From Gammaproteobacteria bacterium (GTDB taxonomy: Bacteria; Pseudomonadota; Gammaproteobacteria; Pseudomonadales; Azotimanducaceae_A), in contig JAPOON010000866.1 in NCBI GenBank assembly GCA_026713405.1, positions 1 through 10,211 of the forward strand: a stretch of DNA of 10,211 nucleotides, given 5' to 3'. Shown here one piece after another: positions 491 to 9,815 of this stretch. Each line of letters begins with the position of its first letter. The first letter of the stretch is position 1. The translations under genes were made by a program, and so were the position numbers. The notes beneath the pieces are model-generated. The model made no database searches. It was not told the DNA's origin and was given only the letters and a program-made list of their open reading frames with translations.

Positions 491-991
491 TCAGGTGCGA
501 GCGGTTCTGCCTTTTGCCCGTTTCCCTTCGAGTTCGGCCTGCAACTCATCCCCGTCCGCAACAACCGGCCCCCAGTCTGCGGTCAGCAATCGCCGGAACG
601 CGCGAAGATCGGCGGCCGTTGCCCGTGTCCGCCTGGCCATCAGTTCCGACAGCGCATGGAGGGCTTCGAGGGCCGCGGTGCGTATGTCGGCGGAAGAATC
701 GGTCAATCCGTACTGGATGCGCCGGGGGTCGTTCGGGTGTTGCCGCTGTTCCACCAGGCCGGACTCGATGAGCAGCTTGGTCATCTGGTGGACGTTCTGG
801 CGGGTGAGGCCCATCTCGCGCGCGATGTCGGCAGGCGAGTGCACGCCGCTGGCGATGTAAACCAGTATCAGCGACTGGGTGCGGTGCACCGGGGTGAAAC
901 CCTGCGATGCGAGTACGTTCTGCAGGCTGTTGTCGAACCAGTCCAGGGCCTTTACCAGCCCGGCGATCAGGTGCCATTCAACGTTTTGCAT
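491..991 (-). CDS. MarR-family transcriptional regulator
   Basis: This encodes a 166-residue winged helix-turn-helix regulator of the MarR type, normally a dimer whose DNA binding is relieved by a small, often aromatic ligand. The DNA-binding part is clear. The helix-turn-helix spans roughly residues 53-77 (PADIAREMGLTRQNVHQMTK), and the wing follows at about 79-97 with the family hallmark D-P-R-R at 88-91. Length is normal for the family, with a somewhat long polar, basic C-terminal tail. The ATG at 989-991 has no convincing Shine-Dalgarno sequence. No in-frame ATG, GTG or TTG exists between it and the TGA that lies inside the operator, so this start is the only reasonable one. Its promoter carries the 15-bp site shared with the CMD and VOC genes, which suggests autoregulation and control of the neighbouring catabolic genes. 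The ligand is unknown. Confidence 0.92.
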   Translation of the reverse strand: MQNVEWHLIAGLVKALDWFDNSLQNVLASQGFTPVHRTQSLILVYIASGVHSPADIAREMGLTRQNVHQMTKLLIESGLVEQRQHPNDPRRIQYGLTDSSADIRTAALEALHALSELMARRTRATAADLRAFRRLLTADWGPVVADGDELQAELEGKRAKGRTART

Positions 992-1089: not shown

Positions 1090-1104
1090 GTCAATTTGAT
1101 TGAC
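1090..1104 (-). promoter_or_regulatory. Operator copy 1, overlapping the marR -10
   Basis: On the minus strand this reads GTCAATCAAATTGAC, an inverted repeat GTCAAT/ATTGAC around a 3-bp centre. It covers the -10 hexamer completely, so a bound protein would block RNA polymerase. It is identical to the sites at 3672-3686 and 3845-3859. That the MarR protein binds it is inferred from proximity, size and symmetry. Confidence 0.65.
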
Positions 1105-1122
1105 GGGAACGGCCACTGTCAA
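1094..1122 (-). promoter_or_regulatory. Sigma-70-type promoter of the marR-like gene
   Basis: On the minus strand a perfect -35 TTGACA (1122 to 1117) is followed after exactly 17 bp by TCAAAT (1099 to 1094) as the -10. The predicted transcript starts near 1087, giving a leader of about 96 nt before the marR ATG. The leader contains a small hairpin, TCCGG-ATG-CCGGA (1070-1082). The same -35, spacing and -10 recur before the CMD and VOC genes, which strengthens the call. The promoter is read from sequence only. Confidence 0.65.
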
Positions 1123-1134
1123 CTGGAAATTCGG

Positions 1135-1437
1135 ATGGGGAAATCCGGATGCGGGAAGTCGCCGGCCCAACGGCGCGTTGGTCGCATTGGCTTGCCCGTG
1201 CCAGGCCACATACACAGGAACCCTGTACCTCGATGCCCATGCGCTTCCAGTGGAGACGCCGATTGCAGGAAACCAGTAATATTTGAGCGGACTTCCGGGC
1301 GGCGGGTTCCCACGGCGGGCTCCAACGACGGGTAGGCGCGCTCCGCTGGACAAGAATGGCCGCAGGCTGAACGGGACGAATGGGGCCGGTCTGAACCCGG
1401 CCGGTAACTGTGACACGGATTCGAGGGGGTGCGAACG
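1135..1437. other. Long leader / intergenic region upstream of the aldehyde dehydrogenase
   Basis: About 300 bp between the marR promoter and the aldehyde dehydrogenase start carry no convincing gene, no copy of the 15-bp operator and no good sigma-70 promoter pair. TAATAT at 1277-1282 could serve as a -10 but has no acceptable -35 at 16-18 bp. A 6-bp hairpin GGCCGG-TCTGAAC-CCGGCC lies at about 1384-1402, some 35 bp before the start codon. The promoter of the aldehyde dehydrogenase therefore remains unidentified. Confidence 0.4.
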
Positions 1438-2811
1438 ATGAACAAGACGGTCGAACTGATCTCTCCGATCGACGGATCGGTGTATCTCACTCGCGAGGTC
1501 GTGTCCCGGGATGCGGCGTTCGCGGCGGCGGAACGCGCGCGCAGGGCGCAGCCGGGCTGGGCTGCCCGCCCACTTGAGGAACGTGTGGCGCTGGTGCGCC
1601 TTGCGAACGAGATCGTCGGGCAGTCGGTCGACCGCATGGCGGTCGAACTCGCCCACCAGATGGGCCGGCCCGTTCGTTACGGCGGCGAGTATTACGGATT
1701 CGACGAACGGGTGACCTACATGGCCGACGTCGCTGCCGATGCGCTGGCGCCGCTGGTTGTGGAAGACAGCGACCGGTTCCGCCGCATGATCAAGCGCGTG
1801 CCGTGGGGGACGGTGCTGGTTGTCGCACCCTGGAACTACCCGTACATGACCGCCATCAACACGGTCGCGCCCGCGCTGATTGCCGGAAACACCGTCATTC
1901 TGAAGCACGCGAGCCAGACGCTTCAGGTCGGCGAGCGCATGGCCGAGGCCTTCCACGAGGCGGGCGTTCCCGAAGACGTCTTGCAGAACCTCGTTCTCGA
2001 TCACCAAACCACCTCGGCGCTGATCGCGGAGCGGGCGGTGCACTTCGTGAACTTCACCGGCTCGGTCGGTGGAGGCCAGGCCATGGAGCGCGCGGCGGCC
2101 GGAACCTTCATCCCGGCGTCCACCGAACTCGGCGGCAAGGACCCGGGCTATGTCCGCGCCGATGCCGACATCGATGCCGCGGTCGATACGCTGATGGACG
2201 GCGCCATGTACAACGCGGGCCAGTGCTGCTGCGGCATCGAGCGAATCTACGTGCAGCAGCCGCTGTTCGGCGCCTTTGTCGAAAAAGCCGTCGCCTGGGC
2301 GGGCGCGCAGAAACTCGGCAACCCGCTCGATCAGGAGACCACCATGGGGCCGATGGCCAGCATCCGTTTCGCGCAGGAAGTGCGCGCGCAGATCGACGAG
2401 GCCCGGGCGCAGGGCGCGAAGGTGCACGTCGAACCGATGGCTGCCGACGACGGTGGCGCCTACGTCACGCCGCAGGTGCTCACGAACGTGACGCACGACA
2501 TGCGGGTGATGCGCGAGGAGACCTTCGGCCCCTCCGTCGGCATCATGCCCGTGCACGATGACGAGGAGGCCGTTCGCCTCATGAACGACAGTCAGTTCGG
2601 CCTGACGGCATCGATCTGGACGGCAGACACCGACGCCGCGGAAGCCCTCGGCGAGCGCATCGAGACCGGCACGGTGTTCATGAACCGCTGCGACTATCTG
2701 GACCCGGCCCTGTGCTGGACCGGCTGCAAGGACACCGGCCGCGGCGCCGGCCTCTCCGTGCTGGGCTATCAGTCACTCACCCGGCCGAAGTCCTTCCATC
2801 TGAAACAGTAG
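1438..2811 (+). CDS. NAD(P)-dependent aldehyde dehydrogenase
   Basis: This is a 457-residue member of the aldehyde dehydrogenase superfamily, which oxidises an aldehyde to the carboxylic acid with NAD(P)+ in the cytoplasm. All key elements are visible: PWN with the oxyanion asparagine N133, cofactor-binding lysine K156 (ILKH), the FTGSVGGG turn, general-base E230 in TELGGKDP, and catalytic C264 in NAGQCCCG. The late EETFGP motif follows. The E-to-C distance of 34 residues equals that in human ALDH2 (E268/C302), and both proteins have three consecutive cysteines. Length is close to the shorter, succinate-semialdehyde-dehydrogenase-like (Sad/YneI) group. The ATG at 1438 is preferred over an in-frame GTG at 1429 because a purine run (GAGGGGG, 1423-1429) sits 8 nt before it. 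Inference: it oxidises an aldehyde intermediate of the cluster's pathway. The substrate cannot be read from sequence. Confidence 0.93.
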   Translation: MNKTVELISPIDGSVYLTREVVSRDAAFAAAERARRAQPGWAARPLEERVALVRLANEIVGQSVDRMAVELAHQMGRPVRYGGEYYGFDERVTYMADVAADALAPLVVEDSDRFRRMIKRVPWGTVLVVAPWNYPYMTAINTVAPALIAGNTVILKHASQTLQVGERMAEAFHEAGVPEDVLQNLVLDHQTTSALIAERAVHFVNFTGSVGGGQAMERAAAGTFIPASTELGGKDPGYVRADADIDAAVDTLMDGAMYNAGQCCCGIERIYVQQPLFGAFVEKAVAWAGAQKLGNPLDQETTMGPMASIRFAQEVRAQIDEARAQGAKVHVEPMAADDGGAYVTPQVLTNVTHDMRVMREETFGPSVGIMPVHDDEEAVRLMNDSQFGLTASIWTADTDAAEALGERIETGTVFMNRCDYLDPALCWTGCKDTGRGAGLSVLGYQSLTRPKSFHLKQ

Positions 2812-2875
2812 GGCCCCGGTGGAACGGGCATGGACCGTTGGTTCAGCGTCAGGGACCGGCGCATGGCTCAATGCA

Positions 2876-2889
2876 GCGGGCAAACCCGC
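2876..2889. terminator. Weak hairpin between convergent genes
   Basis: GCGGG-CAAA-CCCGC forms a short stem-loop in the 158-bp gap between the 3' ends of the aldehyde dehydrogenase and the CMD-family gene. There is no T-run on either strand, so intrinsic termination is doubtful. No better terminator was found in this gap. Confidence 0.2.
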
Positions 2890-2969
2890 CGTGCGCCCTC
2901 ATCGCGGCCATCCGGGCGTCGGTGGTCAGACTGCCCGCGGCGCCCGTTTCCGCGCCGTGAAACTGCCCG

Positions 2970-3638
2970 TCAGGAACTGTCCTTGCCGGAACTCGTCCAG
3001 GCAGACCCGGCCCAGTCGGCCTTCTCGCCCTCGGCGGGAATGGGCACCTCGCGGATGCGCTCGTCCACGTCGTCGTATTCCAGCCGCAGCGCCTTGCACA
3101 TCACCGCGTGCAGGTTGTAGCCCAGGCAGTGGTAGGTGAGTTCCAGTATGTCCTCGTCCGAGAGATGCTCGTGCAGCGCGTTGAACAAGTCGTCGGAGGC
3201 GCGCCCGCCCTGCAGGATCAGGGCATCGGCCCAGGCCAGAACCGCCCGTTCCTTCGCATCGAAGCAGTCCGCCACCTGCCAGTTGGGGATGGCGGCGATC
3301 TTCTCTTCCGGCAAGCCGAAGCGGCGCGCCGCCTTGCAGTGCTGGGAGAATACGAACTGGCTGCCCTGGGCGTAGCCGGTTCGAAGAATGCCCAGTTCGC
3401 GCACCTTGGGGTCGAGCTGGCTGATGCTTTTCTCCGCGAACATGCCGAACATGCCGAAGTGGCTGGTGGCGTGATCGAACACGTAGGGAACCAGTGCGAA
3501 CACCGTCCACCAGTTTCCGGGCGTGCCGGTGGCCGTACCCGGTTCCGCCACCGGGTCCCGGTCACCGAACAATGCCTCGTAATATTTGCGAACGTTCTCG
3601 GTTGCGTCTGCGAGCGGAACTTCTCTCAGCCTCGGCAT
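2970..3638 (-). CDS. Carboxymuconolactone decarboxylase (CMD/AhpD-like) family protein
   Basis: This encodes a 222-residue, all-helical protein of the CMD/AhpD superfamily. Members include decarboxylases of aromatic ring-cleavage lactones, thiol peroxidase partners and many uncharacterised enzymes of catabolic clusters. The family core is seen at about residues 79-115: the VRELGILRTGYAQGSQF helix, then SQHCKAARRFGL with H100, then PEEKI. Where many CMD proteins have Y-E-W-x-x-H, this one has F-V-F-S-Q-H, so the usual glutamate is V96. The AhpD CxxC pair is also absent, with only C101 present. Two ATGs lie close together (3644 and 3638). AAGGAG at 3646-3651 is 7 nt from the second and 1 nt from the first, so 3638 is chosen. 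The gene has its own promoter with the shared operator and is divergent from the VOC gene. The reaction is unknown, but a role in degrading a cyclic compound is likely. Confidence 0.86.
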   Translation of the reverse strand: MPRLREVPLADATENVRKYYEALFGDRDPVAEPGTATGTPGNWWTVFALVPYVFDHATSHFGMFGMFAEKSISQLDPKVRELGILRTGYAQGSQFVFSQHCKAARRFGLPEEKIAAIPNWQVADCFDAKERAVLAWADALILQGGRASDDLFNALHEHLSDEDILELTYHCLGYNLHAVMCKALRLEYDDVDERIREVPIPAEGEKADWAGSAWTSSGKDSS

Positions 3639-3671
3639 GGTCATTCTCCTTCCCGGACAGTGAATCGAAGA

Positions 3672-3686
3672 GTCAATTTGATTGAC
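3672..3686 (-). promoter_or_regulatory. Operator copy 2, overlapping the CMD-gene -10
   Basis: On the minus strand this is GTCAATCAAATTGAC, identical to copies 1 and 3. It has the same orientation and register relative to its gene and covers the -10. Binding by the MarR-family protein encoded at 491-991 is inferred. Confidence 0.67.
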
Positions 3687-3704
3687 GGGAAAGTGCCCTG
3701 TCAA
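3676..3704 (-). promoter_or_regulatory. Sigma-70-type promoter of the CMD-family gene
   Basis: On the minus strand, TTGACA (3704 to 3699), 17 bp, then TCAAAT (3681 to 3676). The transcript would start near 3669, about 30 nt before the start codon. The -35 lies inside a second small dyad, CCTGT-TG-ACAGG. The promoter and the bases upstream of the -35 (GAATTTCC) closely match those of the marR promoter. Confidence 0.67.
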
Positions 3705-3826
3705 CAGGAAATTCCGGCACGCTCGGAATCCGTTCCGCGCCAAACCCGCAAACGGCGCCGGCAGGCAAGTCGGAGGCGCAGCCGCATGCCCGGCCGAGTC
3801 AGGGTACCGACGCTGGCCGCCAGCCA

Positions 3827-3855
3827 TTGACATTCGTCCGGAAAGTCAATCAAAT
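3827..3855 (+). promoter_or_regulatory. Sigma-70-type promoter of the VOC gene (and probably the MFS gene)
   Basis: TTGACA at 3827-3832, a 17-bp spacer, then TCAAAT at 3850-3855. The transcript would begin near 3862, leaving about 23 nt before the VOC ATG. The architecture is the same as in the marR and CMD promoters, but the DNA upstream of the -35 is not similar, so the shared element is the operator-promoter core. Confidence 0.67.
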
Positions 3856-3859
3856 TGAC
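3845..3859 (+). promoter_or_regulatory. Operator copy 3, overlapping the VOC-gene -10
   Basis: GTCAATCAAATTGAC in the sense orientation of the VOC gene, identical to copies 1 and 2 and covering the -10. The two operators of this divergent region (copies 2 and 3) are about 158 bp apart, so they control separate promoters. A looped complex between them is possible but speculative. Confidence 0.67.
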
Positions 3860-3884: not shown

Positions 3885-4427
3885 ATGCCAGCCAACGAAA
3901 AGTTCGAGATTCAGGGCATCAATCACCTTGCACTGGTGTGCAGGGACATGAAGAAGACGGTGGACTTCTACTCCGGGGTTCTGGGCATGCCGCTCACCAA
4001 GACCATCGATCTGCCGGCTGGCATGGGCCAGCACTTCTTTTTCGACATCGGCAACGGCGACATGCTGGCCTTTTTCTGGTTTCCCGATGCGCCGGAGAGC
4101 CTGCCCGGCGTTACCCACGCGGAAAACCTGGTGGGCGGCGGCAGCATTACCTCCGCGCATGCATCGATGAATCACGTCGCCTTCAACGTGCCCGGGGAGA
4201 AAATCGACGAGTATCAGCGGAAGCTGCGCGAGGCGGGCGTCGATGCCACCGCCGTGGTCAACCACGACGATTCGGAAACCCAGGCCAGCCCGTCCCTCAC
4301 CGATACGACTTTCGTGCGGTCGATCTATTTCAAGGACCCGGACGGCATCCTGCTGGAGTTTGCCGCCTGGACCCGCGAACTCGACGAAAGGGACGTCAAT
4401 TCGGAGCCGATGAGCGTCGAAGCCTGA
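3885..4427 (+). CDS. VOC-superfamily (glyoxalase/extradiol-dioxygenase fold) metalloprotein
   Basis: This 180-residue protein has the paired beta-alpha-beta-beta-beta modules of the vicinal oxygen chelate superfamily. Module 1 begins GINHLALVCRDMKKTVDFY and carries H14. Module 2 begins MNHVAFNVP and carries H97. The protein ends its core with KDPDGILLEF, carrying E158. H14, H97 and E158 fit a 2-His-1-Glu metal site. Length matches single-pair VOC proteins such as glyoxalase I or bleomycin/fosfomycin-resistance types. It is shorter than two-domain type I extradiol dioxygenases (about 290 residues), so ring cleavage is possible but not shown. The ATG at 3885 has GAAGGGG 8 nt upstream. An in-frame TTG at 3855 lies inside the operator and is rejected as a start. 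The MFS gene follows after 28 bp, so the two are probably co-transcribed. Confidence 0.88.
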   Translation: MPANEKFEIQGINHLALVCRDMKKTVDFYSGVLGMPLTKTIDLPAGMGQHFFFDIGNGDMLAFFWFPDAPESLPGVTHAENLVGGGSITSAHASMNHVAFNVPGEKIDEYQRKLREAGVDATAVVNHDDSETQASPSLTDTTFVRSIYFKDPDGILLEFAAWTRELDERDVNSEPMSVEA

Positions 4428-4455: not shown

Positions 4456-5793
4456 ATGAACAACGGCAGCAGGCTGTATGCCTGGTATGTGGTCGCTGTG
4501 CTGCTCGTCGCGCAGATCTTCGCGTTCCTCGACCGCATGATCATGGGGCTGCTGGTCGGCCCCGTGCGCGAGACCTTCCAGATCTCCGATACCCAGTACA
4601 GCCTGCTGGCCGGGCTCGCCTTCTCGCTGTTCTACGCCATCATGGGTCTGCCGCTGGCGCGCATCGCCGACAGCAGGAACCGCCGCAATCTCATCGTTGC
4701 CGGCATTGCCGTGTGGAGCGCGATGACGGCGCTCTGCGGGCTGGCGAAAAACTTCTGGTCGCTGTTCCTGGCCCGGGTGGGCGTCGGCGTGGGGGAGGCG
4801 GCGCTGGGGCCGGCTGCCTATTCCATGATCAGCGACTACTTCCCGAAGTCGCTGCTGGCCCGCGCCCTGAGCGTCTACATGATCGGCGTGACCCTGGGCT
4901 CGGGGTTCGCCTACATCCTGGGCGGTGCCGTTGTGGCCCTGGTGCAGGACATGGGCGCCATCGAGGTGCCCGTGCTGGGGCAGATGTACGGCTGGCAGCT
5001 CACCTTCTTCATCGTGGGGGTGCCGGGCCTGCTGGTGGCCCTGTGGATGCGCGCGACGGTGCGCGAGCCGGCCCGGAAGGGCATCGGCGCCGGTTCCGCC
5101 GACTCGATTCCCCTCAGGGAGGTGGTGGCCTACATCGTCGAACGCCGGGCCGCTTATTTTCATCACATCTTCGGCGTTTCCATCTACATCATGGTGGTCT
5201 ATGCGCTGAATCTCTGGGGCCCGACCTATTTCATCCGGACGTTCGACTACGGCCGTGCCGAGGCGGGCCTGGTCTTCGGCATCCTCATGATCCTGGCCGG
5301 TACGGCGGGCCTGCTGGTGGCCGGTTTCGGGGCAGACCGCTGGTTTGCCCGCGGCCGGCTCGATGCCTACCCGCGCACCATACTGATCAGCATGGTCTGC
5401 ATGATCCCCAGCGCGGGCATGCTCGGCTTCGTCACGAGCGACATCCTGGGCATCGTATTCATGTCGCTGGCGGTGTTCCTTTCCGCGGTGCAGGGCGGCA
5501 TCGCCGGGGGCACCCTGCAACTCATGTCGCCTAACCGCATGCGGGGCCAGATCATGGCGGTCTACCTGCTGGTGGGAAACCTCATCGGCCTGGGGCTCGG
5601 CCCGACAGTCGTGGCCGCCACCACCGACTACGTGTTCGGGTACGATGCCGCGGTCGGCAAGTCCATCGCCCTCTGCGCCGTGGTCATCTGCCCGGTGGGC
5701 GCCTACATCCTCTGGCGCGGCCTCGGGCCGGTGCGGCGGCAGATCGAGGAGCGCCAGGCGCTGGAGGCTGGGGAGGCTGCGGCCGCTGCTTGA
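4456..5793 (+). CDS. Spinster-like major facilitator superfamily (MFS) transporter
   Basis: This encodes a 445-residue inner-membrane protein with about 12 hydrophobic segments, the usual MFS size. TM1 (about residues 10-30) ends in FAFLDR, the 'YLDR'-type motif of the spinster-like branch. The loop after TM2 holds a motif-A variant, GLPLARIADSRNRRN (64-78). A third typical stretch is ARVGVGVGEAALGPAAYS followed by MISDYFP. Such proteins move small organic molecules by proton-coupled transport and are common in sphingomonad and gammaproteobacterial catabolic clusters. The direction and substrate here are unknown; uptake of the cluster's growth substrate is the favoured inference. The ATG at 4456 follows CCCCC and has no Shine-Dalgarno sequence. 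Translation probably depends on coupling to the VOC gene 28 bp upstream. Confidence 0.9.
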   Translation: MNNGSRLYAWYVVAVLLVAQIFAFLDRMIMGLLVGPVRETFQISDTQYSLLAGLAFSLFYAIMGLPLARIADSRNRRNLIVAGIAVWSAMTALCGLAKNFWSLFLARVGVGVGEAALGPAAYSMISDYFPKSLLARALSVYMIGVTLGSGFAYILGGAVVALVQDMGAIEVPVLGQMYGWQLTFFIVGVPGLLVALWMRATVREPARKGIGAGSADSIPLREVVAYIVERRAAYFHHIFGVSIYIMVVYALNLWGPTYFIRTFDYGRAEAGLVFGILMILAGTAGLLVAGFGADRWFARGRLDAYPRTILISMVCMIPSAGMLGFVTSDILGIVFMSLAVFLSAVQGGIAGGTLQLMSPNRMRGQIMAVYLLVGNLIGLGLGPTVVAATTDYVFGYDAAVGKSIALCAVVICPVGAYILWRGLGPVRRQIEERQALEAGEAAAAA

Positions 5794-5814: not shown

Positions 5815-5900
5815 CATTGATCCCGGCTCCTCCCGGGAGGGGCGCCGATTGACGCCGGCTCCTCCCCGGAGGGGTTCCGATTGACGCCGGCACCTCGCTT
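5815..5900. repeat. 32-bp tandem repeat, about 2.6 units, with GC-rich hairpins
   Basis: The element ATTGA(T/C)(C/G)CCGGC(T/A)CCTC recurs at 5816, 5848 and 5880, exactly 32 bp apart. Units 1 and 2 are nearly full length and contain snap-back cores (perfect palindrome CCTCCCGGGAGG at 5829-5840; imperfect in unit 2). Unit 3 breaks down after about 20 bp. The array starts about 20 bp after the MFS stop and may act as a transcription attenuator. Unit 3 also supplies the TTGACG used as the -35 of the next gene. Confidence 0.75.
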
Positions 5901-5909
5901 TCGTAAATT
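5881..5909 (+). promoter_or_regulatory. Putative promoter of the flavin monooxygenase gene
   Basis: TTGACG (5881-5886), 17 bp, TAAATT (5904-5909). It would start transcription near 5916, close before the coding region. The -35 comes from the last unit of the 32-bp repeat. It is weaker than the three TTGACA promoters, but the 17-bp spacing and the adjacent operator-like site support it. Read-through from the VOC-MFS transcript is an alternative. Confidence 0.45.
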
Positions 5910-5917
5910 GGATTGAC
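5903..5917. promoter_or_regulatory. Degenerate operator copy 4
   Basis: GTAAATTGGATTGAC matches the reverse-orientation operator GTCAATTTGATTGAC at 13 of 15 positions, with the ATTGAC half intact and the other half changed to GTAAAT. It overlaps the -10 and the expected transcription start of the flavin monooxygenase gene. Binding by the same regulator would put this gene in the same regulon, probably at lower affinity. Confidence 0.5.
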
Positions 5918-5943
5918 GTAATCCACCCTTGGTGAGCCAGACC

Positions 5944-7107
5944 GTGAAAGAAGCCGATCTCATTGCGCGCCTCGAAGACCTGGCGCCCCTGCTGGAGGAA
6001 AACGCGCTGCGGGCGGAACGGGAACGCAAGCCGGTGGACTCCGTGATGAGCGCCATCGAGGCCACGGGCGCCTACCTGTACTTCGTGCCGAAGCGTTTCG
6101 GCGGTTACGAGTTCAGCGTCGAGGGTTTCATGCGCATCGGCATGAGCCTCGGCGAAGCCTGCATGTCCACGGCCTGGGTGACCACCTTCTGCATGGAGCA
6201 CAACTGGCTCTTGGCGCTGTTCTGCCAGGAGGCCCAGGAAGACATCTTCGGCAGCCAGCCCTACATCATCGGGCCGGGCATGCTCGCGCCCATGGGAGAA
6301 GCCACGCCGGAAGACGGCGGTTTCAGGCTGACCGGCCGCTGGGAGTGGGGCACCGGCGTCATGCACGCCGACTGGGTGCTGGTGGGCGCCAGAACGGCGG
6401 GGTGCGATCCGCAGCAACCCGACCTGTACATGTACGCGTTACCACGCAGCGAGGTCACCGTCGTCGACACCTGGAACCCGTCGGGCATGGTGGGCACCGG
6501 CAGCAACGAGGTGCACATCGACAATGTCTTCGTGCCGGGGCACCGCCGCCAGGACGTCAACGGCCTGCGCGACGGCGGCTCGCCGGGCGCGCGCTGGCAC
6601 GACAGGCCCCTTTACCGCATGCCGATGCTGCCCTTCCTGGGCCTGACGGCGACGGCGCCACTTGTTGGCGGGGCGCGCAAGGCGGTGCGGTTGTTTCAGC
6701 AGCGGGTTGCCAAGCGGGCGGTGTACGGCACGGCAGACAAGCAGAAGGAGCGCGCCGTCATCCAGGCGCGCCTGGGCCGCGTGACCGCCAGAATCGTCGG
6801 CCTGGAGAAGCAGCTGCTCGGCCTGGGCGCGGAGACATACGCGCTTGGCACCCGTGGCGGTACCAGCCAGGCGGTGGAACGCGCGGAGTTGCGGGTGCGC
6901 GTGGCCATGCTGGTGCGGGAGGCCCGCGACATCGTCACCGAGGTCATCGAGGCCAGCGGCGCCCACGCGCACTTCCTGGACAACCCCCTGCAGCGCATTC
7001 AGCGCGACATCAACACGGCGGCCGGGCACACGGTCTTCGATCTCGATGCCGGCACCGAACTGTACGGCCGGCTACTGCTGGGCTACCCGCCGAACCTGCC
7101 GGTCTGA
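5944..7107 (+). CDS. Acyl-CoA-dehydrogenase-fold flavin monooxygenase (HsaA / group D type)
   Basis: This is a protein of about 387 residues with the acyl-CoA dehydrogenase fold in its two-component-monooxygenase variant. Members such as HsaA or p-hydroxyphenylacetate hydroxylase use reduced flavin and O2 to hydroxylate phenols. Visible signatures are FVPKRFGGYEFS (47-58), TGRWEWGTG (130-138, the family's SGRW..SG flavin-loop region), and the C-terminal block NPLQRIQRDINTAAGHTVFD followed by LYGRLLLG. H362 in GHTVFD lies 25 residues from the end. That resembles the flavin-site His396 of the 422-residue C2 hydroxylase, but the equivalence is inferred. A flavin reductase partner is expected but absent here. 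TTG (5929), GTG (5932) and GTG (5944) are all possible starts. GTG 5944 is chosen because GGTGAG lies 7 nt before it. A dehydrogenase acting on a thioester cannot be fully excluded. Confidence 0.85.
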   Translation: MKEADLIARLEDLAPLLEENALRAERERKPVDSVMSAIEATGAYLYFVPKRFGGYEFSVEGFMRIGMSLGEACMSTAWVTTFCMEHNWLLALFCQEAQEDIFGSQPYIIGPGMLAPMGEATPEDGGFRLTGRWEWGTGVMHADWVLVGARTAGCDPQQPDLYMYALPRSEVTVVDTWNPSGMVGTGSNEVHIDNVFVPGHRRQDVNGLRDGGSPGARWHDRPLYRMPMLPFLGLTATAPLVGGARKAVRLFQQRVAKRAVYGTADKQKERAVIQARLGRVTARIVGLEKQLLGLGAETYALGTRGGTSQAVERAELRVRVAMLVREARDIVTEVIEASGAHAHFLDNPLQRIQRDINTAAGHTVFDLDAGTELYGRLLLGYPPNLPV

Positions 7108-7394: not shown

Positions 7395-9746
7395 CTACAG
7401 GTCGTAGGTAAAGAACGCGCTGACCGTCCGCGGCCGAAGCGGCTGCCCGAAGCCCATCTGGAAAGCCGAGAACGTCGTGCGCGACTCGAAGTAGAACTCG
7501 TCGGTCAGGTTGCGTGCCCGCACACCCAGGCTCCATTTTTCGTCCGGGCTGCGGTACGTGACGCTGGCATTCAGGATCTTGTGGTCGTCGGTGAATGACT
7601 CCAGCGTATTCTCCGTGCGCGTGTAGTAGTCGGCCTTGGTCGAATAGTCGCTGCGCAAGGTGAGCACCGCGCCGTTGGGCAGCGCGACATCGTAGGCCGC
7701 GGTGATCGCCAGGGTCCACGAAGGCACAAACGGCAGTTCGTGCTCCTCGGTAATCACAATCCCGGATGAAACAAGCCCGCCGCCCACCAGAGAGTCGATC
7801 TCATCGTCCAGATGACCGACGTTTATGCCCAGCGTGAAGTCGTCGGTGACCAGAGCCGTCAGCTCGATCTCAAAGCCCTTGTAGGTCGCATCGCCCAGGT
7901 TGAACTTGGTGGTGTTGTCTCCAACGTTCGGCAGCAGTGAGGTGGCCGAAATCTGCATGTCGGTGTATTTCAACAGAAACGCCGCCACGTTGGCGCGCAG
8001 ACGCCCGTCAAGCAGCGTGGTCTTGTAGCCAATCTCGAAGTTCTCCACGAACTCGGGTTCGTAGTTCGGCAACGGAATGGGCACCACGCCCGTGAACCGT
8101 GCCGGAAACCCGCCGTCCCGGTAGCCTTCCGAATAGGTGAAATACGCCATGGACGTCTCGTTCACGTCGTAGGACAGGCTCGCCATGGGCGTGTGCTCTG
8201 TCGTTTTCAACAGGCCCGGCTGCACCGTGGTCGCAGTGACGCGCTCCGTGATCATCACGAAGTCTTTCTCCGACTCGGTATACCGGGTACCCACGGTCAG
8301 GTGCAGCGCCTGGGTGATGTCGAAGGTCAGCTGGCCGTACAGCGCCCAGCTTTCGTTGTCGATGTGGCGCGCCAGGTTCTGGAAGAAATTGGCGGGGGGT
8401 CCGCCGCTGATGGCCGGAACGTGGGCGATCTGATTGAAGATGTCTTCCACCCCGTCCTCTTTGAAGTAGTAGGCGCCCACCACGTAGTTCAAGCGGCTGT
8501 CCATGCCGGTGCCCGTCAGCTGCAGCTCCTGGGAGAACTGTTCCTGGCTGTATTCGGGATGCGTGTTCGCGAAAACGATGTGCGGCGAGAAGTCGAGGTC
8601 GTTGAACAGGAAGATGTCGAACTCGCGGTAGGAGGTGATGGATTTCAGCGAGACCGCCTCGAAATCCAGCCCCAGCGTCAGGTTCGTGCCCCAGACTTCG
8701 ATGTCCTGTTTGCCCTCCACCTGGTTGCCTTGCAGGTCGGTGAAAACGCTGTTCGTCTCGAACCGCCCGGCGTTCCACACGGACCCGTAACAGGCCGGGT
8801 TGCCGGCCTGTCCCGCCGGCGAGAGGCAGCTTCCCGGGTCGCCGCTGTAAAAGACATTCCAGAAGTTGCCGAATGCCCCCGGTTGGCCCGGGCCCTCCCT
8901 TTGCTGTCCGTCCCACACGCCGATGCCGTTCAGGGGAACGATGGCGCCGGGCGTGCTTTCGTCCTTGGAGTAGTCGAAGCTGAAGTCGACGGAGAATTGC
9001 TCGCCCGCCATGCCGCTGATCACCAGCCGCGTTCCCCACACATCTTCGCTGCCAAGTTCGTAGCTGTCGTACTGAAGCGCATCGACGTAGCCGTCCATTT
9101 CCCGGGTGAATGCACTCAGGCGTGCACCCCAATCGCCGTTGAGCGGTACGTTGACCGTGCCCCGGGCTTCAATCAGGCCATCCTCTCCGGCCCCCAGCTT
9201 GATCGACGCCCCAAACTCATCGTCCGGCTTCCTGGAAACGATGTTGATGGCGCCGCCGATGGTATTGCGCCCGAACAGGGTTCCCTGCGGACCGCGCAGC
9301 ACTTCGATACGCTCCACGTCCACCAGGTCGGAGGCCTGACCCACCATGCGGCCCATGAACACGCCATCGAGATAAAGCCCCACGGCCGGGTCCTCGACAA
9401 TGATGAAGTCCGCCTGACCCATGCCGCGGACAAACACCACCGGCGACTCCACACCGCTGGTGCCGCCGGCGCTTTCAAAGTGCACGTTGGGCACGATCTG
9501 GCCGATGACGTCGAAGTTGGCTTCGCCGCGCGCGAGGATCTCCTCGCTGGAAATCACGGCAACGGAGGTCGGCACGTCCTGCAGGCTTTCCTCGCGGCGC
9601 CGCGCTGTCACCACGATTTCCTCGAGGGTGCGCGCGGCGGGCTCGTCATCCGCGGCGCGAACATCCCCTGCCAACGGCAGAAGTGCGGCGGCCGCCAGCA
9701 GGGCGACCACCAGGGATGTGTCTCGAAATACGATGGGTAAACTCAC
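7395..9746 (-). CDS. TonB-dependent outer-membrane receptor
   Basis: This 783-residue receptor has the full architecture of the family. A signal peptide (hydrophobic core about 11-26, likely cleavage after DVRA, about residue 31) is followed by a TonB-box region LEEIVVTARRREESLQDVP (about 41-59). The plug domain includes LYLDGVFMGR, then VERIEVLRGPQGTLFGRN and GGAINIVSRKP. The remainder is a 22-strand-type barrel with many alternating aromatic strands, ending ARNLTDEFYF ... FFTYDL. Such receptors import siderophores, cobalamin, sugars or large hydrophobic or aromatic compounds using TonB-ExbBD energy. The catabolic neighbours suggest import of the cluster's substrate rather than iron. The start is GTG at 9746, with GGAGAG 6 nt upstream (9753-9758). 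The gene is intact, convergent with the monooxygenase, and has its own putative promoter. Confidence 0.95.
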   Translation of the reverse strand: MSLPIVFRDTSLVVALLAAAALLPLAGDVRAADDEPAARTLEEIVVTARRREESLQDVPTSVAVISSEEILARGEANFDVIGQIVPNVHFESAGGTSGVESPVVFVRGMGQADFIIVEDPAVGLYLDGVFMGRMVGQASDLVDVERIEVLRGPQGTLFGRNTIGGAINIVSRKPDDEFGASIKLGAGEDGLIEARGTVNVPLNGDWGARLSAFTREMDGYVDALQYDSYELGSEDVWGTRLVISGMAGEQFSVDFSFDYSKDESTPGAIVPLNGIGVWDGQQREGPGQPGAFGNFWNVFYSGDPGSCLSPAGQAGNPACYGSVWNAGRFETNSVFTDLQGNQVEGKQDIEVWGTNLTLGLDFEAVSLKSITSYREFDIFLFNDLDFSPHIVFANTHPEYSQEQFSQELQLTGTGMDSRLNYVVGAYYFKEDGVEDIFNQIAHVPAISGGPPANFFQNLARHIDNESWALYGQLTFDITQALHLTVGTRYTESEKDFVMITERVTATTVQPGLLKTTEHTPMASLSYDVNETSMAYFTYSEGYRDGGFPARFTGVVPIPLPNYEPEFVENFEIGYKTTLLDGRLRANVAAFLLKYTDMQISATSLLPNVGDNTTKFNLGDATYKGFEIELTALVTDDFTLGINVGHLDDEIDSLVGGGLVSSGIVITEEHELPFVPSWTLAITAAYDVALPNGAVLTLRSDYSTKADYYTRTENTLESFTDDHKILNASVTYRSPDEKWSLGVRARNLTDEFYFESRTTFSAFQMGFGQPLRPRTVSAFFTYDL

Positions 9747-9787
9747 GTCTCACTCTCCAAAAAAATGGGCGGCATTAGCGTCAAATC

Positions 9788-9815
9788 ATCTTACACAGAT
9801 GCGATTGCGGATCAA
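9788..9815 (-). promoter_or_regulatory. Putative promoter of the TonB-dependent receptor
   Basis: On the minus strand, TTGATC (9815 to 9810), 16 bp, then TAAGAT (9793 to 9788), about 40 bp before the GTG start. Both hexamers match consensus at four positions or more. A degenerate dyad, GTCAAATCATCTTAC (9780-9794), overlaps the -10 but matches the 15-bp operator at only 9 positions, so regulation by the same protein is not claimed. Confidence 0.4.

Follow-up and report, generated by a model that had tools for sequence, protein, structure and literature searches.

Three identical palindromes as very probable operators of a local MarR regulon in an uncultured gammaproteobacterium

CouR from Rhodococcus jostii RHA1 is a MarR-family regulator of p-hydroxycinnamate catabolism (PMC4737184). 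Here we describe a locus with a similar layout, on a stretch of 10,211 nucleotides from a gammaproteobacterial genome (assembly GCA_026713405.1, contig JAPOON010000866.1; "the window" means this whole stretch). In the window, the 15-mer GTCAATCAAATTGAC, a palindrome of the form GTCAAT-N3-ATTGAC, precedes three genes: marR, for a MarR-family regulator that we call MarR1; a gene of the carboxymuconolactone decarboxylase family (CMD); and a VOC gene. The window also encodes an aldehyde dehydrogenase, an MFS transporter, an acyl-CoA-dehydrogenase-type flavin monooxygenase (ACAD), and a TonB-dependent receptor. Judging from the sequences, the three 15-mers are very probably the operators of a local MarR regulon.

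The likeness to CouR lies in a set of nearly identical inverted repeats in front of the genes of a single aromatic-catabolic regulon, among them the gene of the MarR repressor itself (PMC4737184). As described there, the CouR boxes have ATTGA/TCAAT arms, a 5-bp spacer, and a TTGAcA -35, and the window shares the arm words. A single CouR repeat also spans the -35 boxes of two divergent promoters (PMC4737184), which resembles the interlocked promoters of eight relatives of this cluster (see below). However, the CouR repeat is ATTGA-N5-TCAAT over the -35 (PMC4737184), whereas the window has the arms reversed (GTCAAT-N3-ATTGAC), over the -10, and none of the window's sites has the CouR-group form. 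EstR from Agrobacterium tumefaciens is another MarR-family protein whose operator, a 14-bp palindrome, is in a promoter region shared by divergent regulator and enzyme genes, but the letters of that operator, given as GTTATCGCGATAAC, are unrelated to the window's site (PMC5201249). GbsR and OpcR from Bacillus subtilis are two MarR-type repressors in one pathway, and one of their operators overlaps a -35. They are described as acting jointly on one promoter (PMC7396694), whereas the paralogues that we discuss below appear to use one operator by turns, one protein in some lineages and the other elsewhere. We recognised no published description of this operator in the literature that was searched. 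An ordinary MarR regulon is already familiar, and it is the history of this one, with its matched series of operators and regulators, that merits following.

Palindromes and promoters in the window

The sites are as follows (G001 is the genome of the closest relative).

1090-1104, minus strand: putative operator of marR, GTCAATCAAATTGAC; exact match that covers the putative -10
1117-1122, minus strand: TTGACA, -35 of the marR promoter, 12 nt from the operator
3672-3686, minus strand: putative operator of the CMD gene, GTCAATCAAATTGAC; exact match; orthologous promoters in relatives keep the register
3699-3704, minus strand: TTGACA, -35 of the CMD promoter, from the hexamer search
3827-3832, plus strand: TTGACA, -35 of the VOC promoter, from the hexamer search
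3845-3859, plus strand: putative operator of the VOC gene, GTCAATCAAATTGAC; exact match; identical in G001 and of the GTCAATGATATTGAY type in other relatives
5881-5909, plus strand: predicted ACAD promoter, TTGACG-17-TAAATT, from a promoter scan
5903-5917, plus strand: weaker operator-like site of ACAD, GTAAATTGGATTGAC; two mismatches; the same 15 letters precede ACAD in G001
9780-9794, minus strand: weaker variant operator-like site of the TonB receptor gene, GTAAGATGATTTGAC, from a palindrome search

An earlier note on this DNA had proposed three identical operators within three identical promoter cores with strong -35 hexamers. An exact search agrees with it on the three copies of the 15-mer, their places and strands, and each copy is oriented toward its own gene (marR, CMD, or VOC). 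With up to three mismatches there are seven rows in the window (the three exact copies, three opposite-strand readings of them, and the weaker site at 5903-5917), as against 0.12 expected from 200 dinucleotide shuffles. None of the shuffles reached seven, so a chance origin of the three 15-mers is excluded. Counting both strands, the window has five copies of TTGACA; three of them precede the 15-mers, one each, at a distance of exactly 12 nt. TCAAAT begins 17 nt after TTGACA at all three promoters, so the common register that the note described also stands.

The promoters themselves are less uniform than that wording suggests, and they are not strong at the -10. Outside the -35 hexamer and the 15-mer, which are identical in all three, the marR and CMD promoters are alike at 19 of 32 positions (permutation p = 0.0002), but the VOC promoter is unlike both (6/32 with marR and 4/32 with CMD). 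In G001, the marR and CMD promoters are alike at 16 of the 32 positions outside the core (p = 0.01). The -35 is perfect, yet TCAAAT matches TATAAT at only four of six positions and lacks the A at position 2. The promoter scan did not report any of the three palindrome promoters; the sole promoter-like site that it gave between 900 and 6000 is TTGACG-17-TAAATT before ACAD. An alternative -10 may lie one base downstream (CAAATT, with a spacer of 18). The divergent CMD and VOC promoters of the window have separate operators.

The list of three operators was also short, as the sites before ACAD and the TonB receptor gene probably belong to it. The same 15 letters as GTAAGATGATTTGAC precede the TonB orthologues of G006 and G008 (90-92% identity). 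Upstream of ACAD (5848-5917), three ATTGAC words are spaced by exactly 32 bp (5848, 5880, and 5912), two of them within CCGATTGACGCCGGC; the counterpart in the closest relative's locus keeps only the last two at 32 bp.

Conservation and distribution among relatives

When genome contigs were scanned with an alignment of MarR sequences, 13 loci came up, in 13 genomes that have a MarR1 homologue. In 11 of the 13 neighbourhoods, ACAD adjoins MarR1 together with at least one further gene of the window (CMD, VOC, MFS, or TonB, and the aldehyde dehydrogenase once); at L003 and L013, only ACAD lies beside MarR1. The closest locus is L001, in G001 (88% identity for MarR, 94% for CMD, 95% for VOC, 95% for MFS, and 89% for ACAD). 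There the exact 15-mer is found before CMD and VOC, and the ACAD site is the same as in the window. In relatives more generally, the sites are kept at the orthologous CMD and VOC promoters, so the palindromes as promoter-bound regulatory sites common to a local gene set are supported. The marR site recurs in G001 only, with two mismatches.

A motif-blind count of exact palindromes (5-mer arms, spacers of 0-11) in the DNA upstream of cluster genes in 14 sequences, merged into 61 regions, ranked TCAAT-N3-ATTGA first (7 regions, 4 loci). Leaving out the window and L001, it still ranked first, with thin support (4 regions, 2 loci). The perfect motif GTCAATNNNATTGAC occurs at five places in four of the 13 genomes, and all five are directly before CMD or VOC orthologues; the reversed control gave none. 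The degenerate motif GTMAAWNNNWTTKAC occurs at 28 places in the 13 genomes (reversed control, 8), and by our reading 15 of these are at cluster genes; the other 13 were only partly examined. In the 5.3 Mb of G001, GTMAAWNNNWTTKAC is found at three places (reversed control, 0). With up to two mismatches to the 15-mer there are six places in G001, four of them in the cluster; the remaining two have the same letters, GTCGATCAAATTGAG, and both are within long open frames.

We also searched 206 genomes of the family for a strict pattern, TTGACAN{11,13}TCAAYNNNRTTG, that is, TTGACA, 11-13 nt, and the palindrome. It was found at 34 places in 27 genomes (reversed control, 8). In 15 genomes, which we call strict-site genomes, it precedes CMD, VOC, or VOC2 (18 of the 34 places). 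The other 16 places include nine without a nearby cluster homologue, four inside MFS-like coding sequence, and three that were not retrieved. Since the places in G001, in the 13 genomes, and in the family fall mainly in this cluster, the regulon as predicted from the motif is local, and the motif, which the earlier note had offered for searching out the whole regulon, marks essentially one cluster and does not open up a wide regulon. Beyond the family, 390 genomes drawn from the order gave one match at E = 1e-30, which was G001 itself.

The distance from TTGACA to the palindrome is 12 nt in nearly all of the aligned sites, and where this spacer varies across relatives, the arms stay. We aligned the CMD promoters on TTGACA-N12, with the kinship of the genomes judged from CMD identity only. 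All ten arm letters are present in the window, G001, G003, and G075, and nine of ten in G002, G004, G009, G011, and G118. In G183, G015, and G014, which are close relatives by CMD identity and have neither MarR1 nor MarR2 (a second MarR paralogue, described below) at the thresholds used, the CMD promoter is recognisable and in register, and the arms have eroded to 7, 7, and 6 of 10; the -35 and the core GATAT are largely retained. The window has perfect arms around a core, CAA, that departs from the GAT of its relatives. A comparison of arms between 22 and 4 promoters gave p = 0.005 (Mann-Whitney), which deserves little weight, as the rows are related. It used promoters with an exact TTGACA 11-13 nt before CMD, VOC, or VOC2; marR rows were dropped, as were the rows with a 5-of-6 -35, which include the CMD promoters of G014 (6), G163 (6), G007 (7), and G085 (7) and the off-register one of G004 (6), and the off-register VOC rows of G009 and G011 (6 each).

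In eight relatives, by our reading of the sequences, the operator arm TTGAC doubles as the -35 of the opposite promoter. Before MFS this takes the form TTGACT or TTGACC, 17 nt, and TAGCAT or TAGGAT (G004, G040, G058, G118, G120, and G121); before VOC, TAGGCT is the -10 counterpart (G003 and G075). The loci are as follows.

L016, L034, L116, L120, L122, L126, L127, L128: interlocked promoters, in G003, G004, G040, G058, G075, G118, G120, and G121

G058 has a palindrome on both sides, GTCAATGATATTGAT and GTCAATAGCATTGAC, with the inner arms as the -35s. A more distant MarR (about 40%) lies behind ACAD at L111-L114 (in G159, G155, G167, and G161); there GTCAAATAATTTGAC is found before ACAD and GTCAAACTACTTGAC or GTCAAAATACTTGAC before the TonB gene, all with the same arms and other cores.

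Which regulator binds the sites

The window has what is expected for a MarR autorepressor: a winged-helix protein and, before its own gene as well as before its predicted targets, a promoter with an inverted repeat some 15-20 bp long. MarR1 matches the Pfam families MarR_2 (PF12802; E = 2e-12, 47.5 bits, cut-off 27) and MarR (PF01047; E = 1.6e-6, 28.3 bits, cut-off 24.6). Its AlphaFold model has a mean pLDDT of 87.9, with a helix-turn-helix (H53-60/H64-76) and a beta wing (E80-84/E92-96). A search of the PDB matched five sequences at E = 0.01. CouR, whose structure is presumably in the PDB, was not among them. MarR proteins 74-94% identical to MarR1 are on record from other holders (P0001-P0010).

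MarR2 is about 33% identical to MarR1 and is encoded behind CMD-VOC2 or VOC2 in many relatives. At 50% identity or above it was found in 20 of the 206 genomes, leaving out a 72-residue fragment in G116. The two proteins form separate clades: 18 rows for MarR2 (support 100/99) and 20 rows at 50% identity or above for MarR1 (88/92). The recognition segment is TRQNVHQM in the window's MarR1, TRQNVHQM or TRQNVHHM across its clade, and mostly SKQAVQQ or SKQA.QQ in the MarR2 clade. Of the 15 strict-site genomes, 12 contain MarR2 and nine contain MarR1. Because MarR2 dominates the strict-site genomes and variant palindromes of the type GTMAAATNATTTKAC lie near MarR1, ACAD, or TonB in six of 13 genomes (G004, G005, G007, G009, G012, and G013), it looks like the ancestral pairing was of MarR2 with sites that have T6/A10 and of MarR1 with sites that have A6/T10.

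The earlier note had the window's MarR protein as the presumed binder. A MarR-type protein is indeed encoded in the cluster, but the prevalence of MarR2 makes the choice less direct. We favour MarR1 as the most likely binder in the window, as MarR2 was not found in G001 (queries with MarR2 and with MarR1 each gave one match, MarR1 itself), marR1 carries the operator in the window, and the marR and CMD promoters are alike. As a whole, our explanation, with MarR1 bound to the operators of a local substrate-induced regulon and with the takeover from MarR2 that is described below, is probably right. A number of observations weigh against it. The association of the operator is numerically stronger with MarR2 than with MarR1, and G001 is a draft metagenome-assembled genome of unstated completeness, so the missing MarR2 is weak evidence. 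The autoregulatory site is present before marR in the window but in G001 is GTCAATCAAATTTGC, with part of one arm gone. The three palindrome promoters have a poor -10. Three genomes with MarR1 (G005, G010, and G012) and eight of the 20 with MarR2 (G076, G100, G119, G134, G147, G161, G163, and G167) do not have the strict promoter-operator pattern, though G163 has full arms at a different spacing. Two relatives with MarR1 only, G006 and G008, keep just 8 and 7 of 10 arm letters at the CMD promoter, with 10 and 9 at the VOC sites. G085 has a near-site (9/10 arms, TTGACA-N12) before VOC and no MarR1 or MarR2 match. At L009 (in G009), upstream of a VOC gene that starts at 11042 on the minus strand, TTGACA is 6 nt and not 12 nt before GTCAATGATATTGAT. 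Finally, in a looser palindrome search the variant GTAAAA-N3 ranked first (11 loci), and several G+C-rich palindromes outranked GTCAAT-N3 (14 regions, 7 loci).

The strongest rival assigns the operators to MarR2, or to a further MarR paralogue, encoded at another place in the window's genome; MarR1 would then control only the ACAD and TonB variants and be a target of MarR2 itself. MarR2 lies directly behind CMD-VOC2 or VOC2 in the strict-site genomes where the neighbourhood was read, and the window's TonB site is of the GTMAAATNATTTKAC type, as this rival would have it. However, the two perfect operators of G001 are the same as the window's and coexist with no detected MarR2, and the window's marR1 and ACAD sites have the MarR2-type letters T6/A10, not A6/T10, so we consider this rival unlikely. 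MarR3-type paralogues are disfavoured as binders: they occur in genomes with and without strict sites. That the palindrome serves a regulator from outside the MarR family and is linked to MarR genes by coincidence seems improbable. Palindromes with arms of 5-6 bp are not specific to MarR proteins, and the near-site in G085 would fit; yet MarR1 or MarR2 is found in all 15 strict-site genomes and in just 26 of the 206 overall (Fisher p = 3e-16, ignoring kinship), and MarR regulators were the only ones noticed beside the sites, in a search there that was limited to seven window proteins, MarR2, and VOC2.

The fixed 12-nt distance and the placement of the -10 inside the palindrome could also mean that the conserved letters are promoter elements only, a TTGACA and a -10 in a chance palindrome. 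We reject this as very improbable: the arms are perfect in the window where the core has changed, the reverse is seen in G014, G015, and G183, and four genomes (G155, G159, G161, and G163) have full arms without TTGACA at that distance. A dispersed repeat might seem natural for three identical copies within 10 kb, and the earlier note had named it as the alternative to check. In G001 it is rejected, since all three places of GTMAAWNNNWTTKAC are in the cluster; given also that the flanks of the copies differ and that the sites recur at orthologous promoters in relatives, we give this reading almost no credence. A phage or plasmid origin was likewise rejected: no relative of MarR1 was confirmed in viral contigs (0 of 23 stretches), and the plasmid matches were distant and partial (10 records, the best at 37% over half of the query). 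The strict pattern has 14 loci in viral contigs, none with a homologue of a cluster protein, and we take these to be chance.

The gene cluster, a proposed mechanism, and its history

The genes of the cluster are as follows.

491-991, minus strand: marR (MarR1), winged-helix MarR-family regulator of 166 aa; favoured (predicted) binder of the operators
1438-2811: aldehyde dehydrogenase, between marR and CMD
2970-3638, minus strand: CMD gene, 222 aa; Pfam CMD, E = 4.5e-15; orthologues in relatives
3885-4427, plus strand: VOC gene (glyoxalase/extradiol-dioxygenase fold), 180 aa; Pfam Glyoxalase, E = 5.5e-19
4456-5793, plus strand: MFS transporter, 445 aa, directly 3' of VOC; Pfam MFS_1, E = 1.1e-40
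5929-7107, plus strand: ACAD, flavin monooxygenase of the HsaA/p-hydroxyphenylacetate-hydroxylase type, oxygenase component
7395-9746, minus strand: TonB-dependent receptor, 783 aa; Pfam TonB barrel, E = 2.6e-44, and plug, 5.7e-17

VOC is the probable first gene of a VOC-MFS unit; the MFS gene has no palindrome of its own within 250 bp upstream. The aldehyde dehydrogenase gene has no palindrome within 250 bp upstream either, and no homologue in L001, so we left it outside the regulon; it is perhaps a later insertion. ACAD resembles both HsaA and the oxygenase of p-hydroxyphenylacetate 3-hydroxylase. It matches the NCBIfam models for HsaA (E = 9.4e-70, 235.3 bits) and for p-hydroxyphenylacetate hydroxylase (199 bits) below their cut-offs of 450 and 650 bits, so we did not assign a substrate from them, and its PDB match is 2rfq, a 3-HSA hydroxylase (E = 3.3e-56). 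The VOC protein has only weak matches in the PDB. The enzyme set (flavin monooxygenase, VOC, CMD, MFS, and TonB) suggests that the cluster handles a ring compound, with aromatic breakdown as its putative role.

We propose that GTCAAT-N3-ATTGAC is bound by a MarR dimer, most likely of the window's MarR1, each of whose winged helices contacts one half-site. With the operator over the -10 and its start 12 nt past the -35, RNA polymerase would be obstructed at marR, CMD, and VOC(-MFS) while the dimer is bound, and the same dimer may give a weaker block at the ACAD and TonB receptor genes. The dimer would be released by a ligand, probably a ring compound (aromatic or other) that is handled by the ACAD monooxygenase, or a product of it, and this would switch on the genes for uptake, transport, and oxidation as well as that of the regulator. 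We infer the steric block and the release by a ligand from knowledge of the family, as in the account of CouR (PMC4737184).

As to history, the operator may first have belonged to MarR2. In the lineage that leads to G001 (which gave no MarR2) and to the window, the CMD promoter may have been copied before marR1, and MarR1 may then have taken over the operators. This would be the simplest account because the likeness of the marR and CMD promoters extends outside the core and the CMD and VOC operators of G001 are perfect with MarR1 only. We put forward the fuller version, a regulator takeover, tentatively, as somewhat short of an even bet. The paralogues would share the GTCAA/TTGAC arms and differ in preference at positions 6 and 10 (T/A for MarR2, and A/T near most MarR1); after MarR2 was lost and the CMD promoter was copied, the ACAD site would have changed to T6/A10, and MarR1 would now run the MarR2 regulon. 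As the TTGAC arm is also a -35 word, operators and divergent promoters could interconvert by few changes.

For the catabolic cluster of these uncultured Gammaproteobacteria, the result is a putative operator that is defined by sequence and a regulator that can be tested. The relatives have operators in intact, altered, and eroded form, each matched to the presence or absence of two paralogous regulators; with this natural series, two proteins, and two 15-bp sites, it can be tested how one repressor inherits the operators of another. The inducer of the regulated genes would reveal the compound that the cluster handles.

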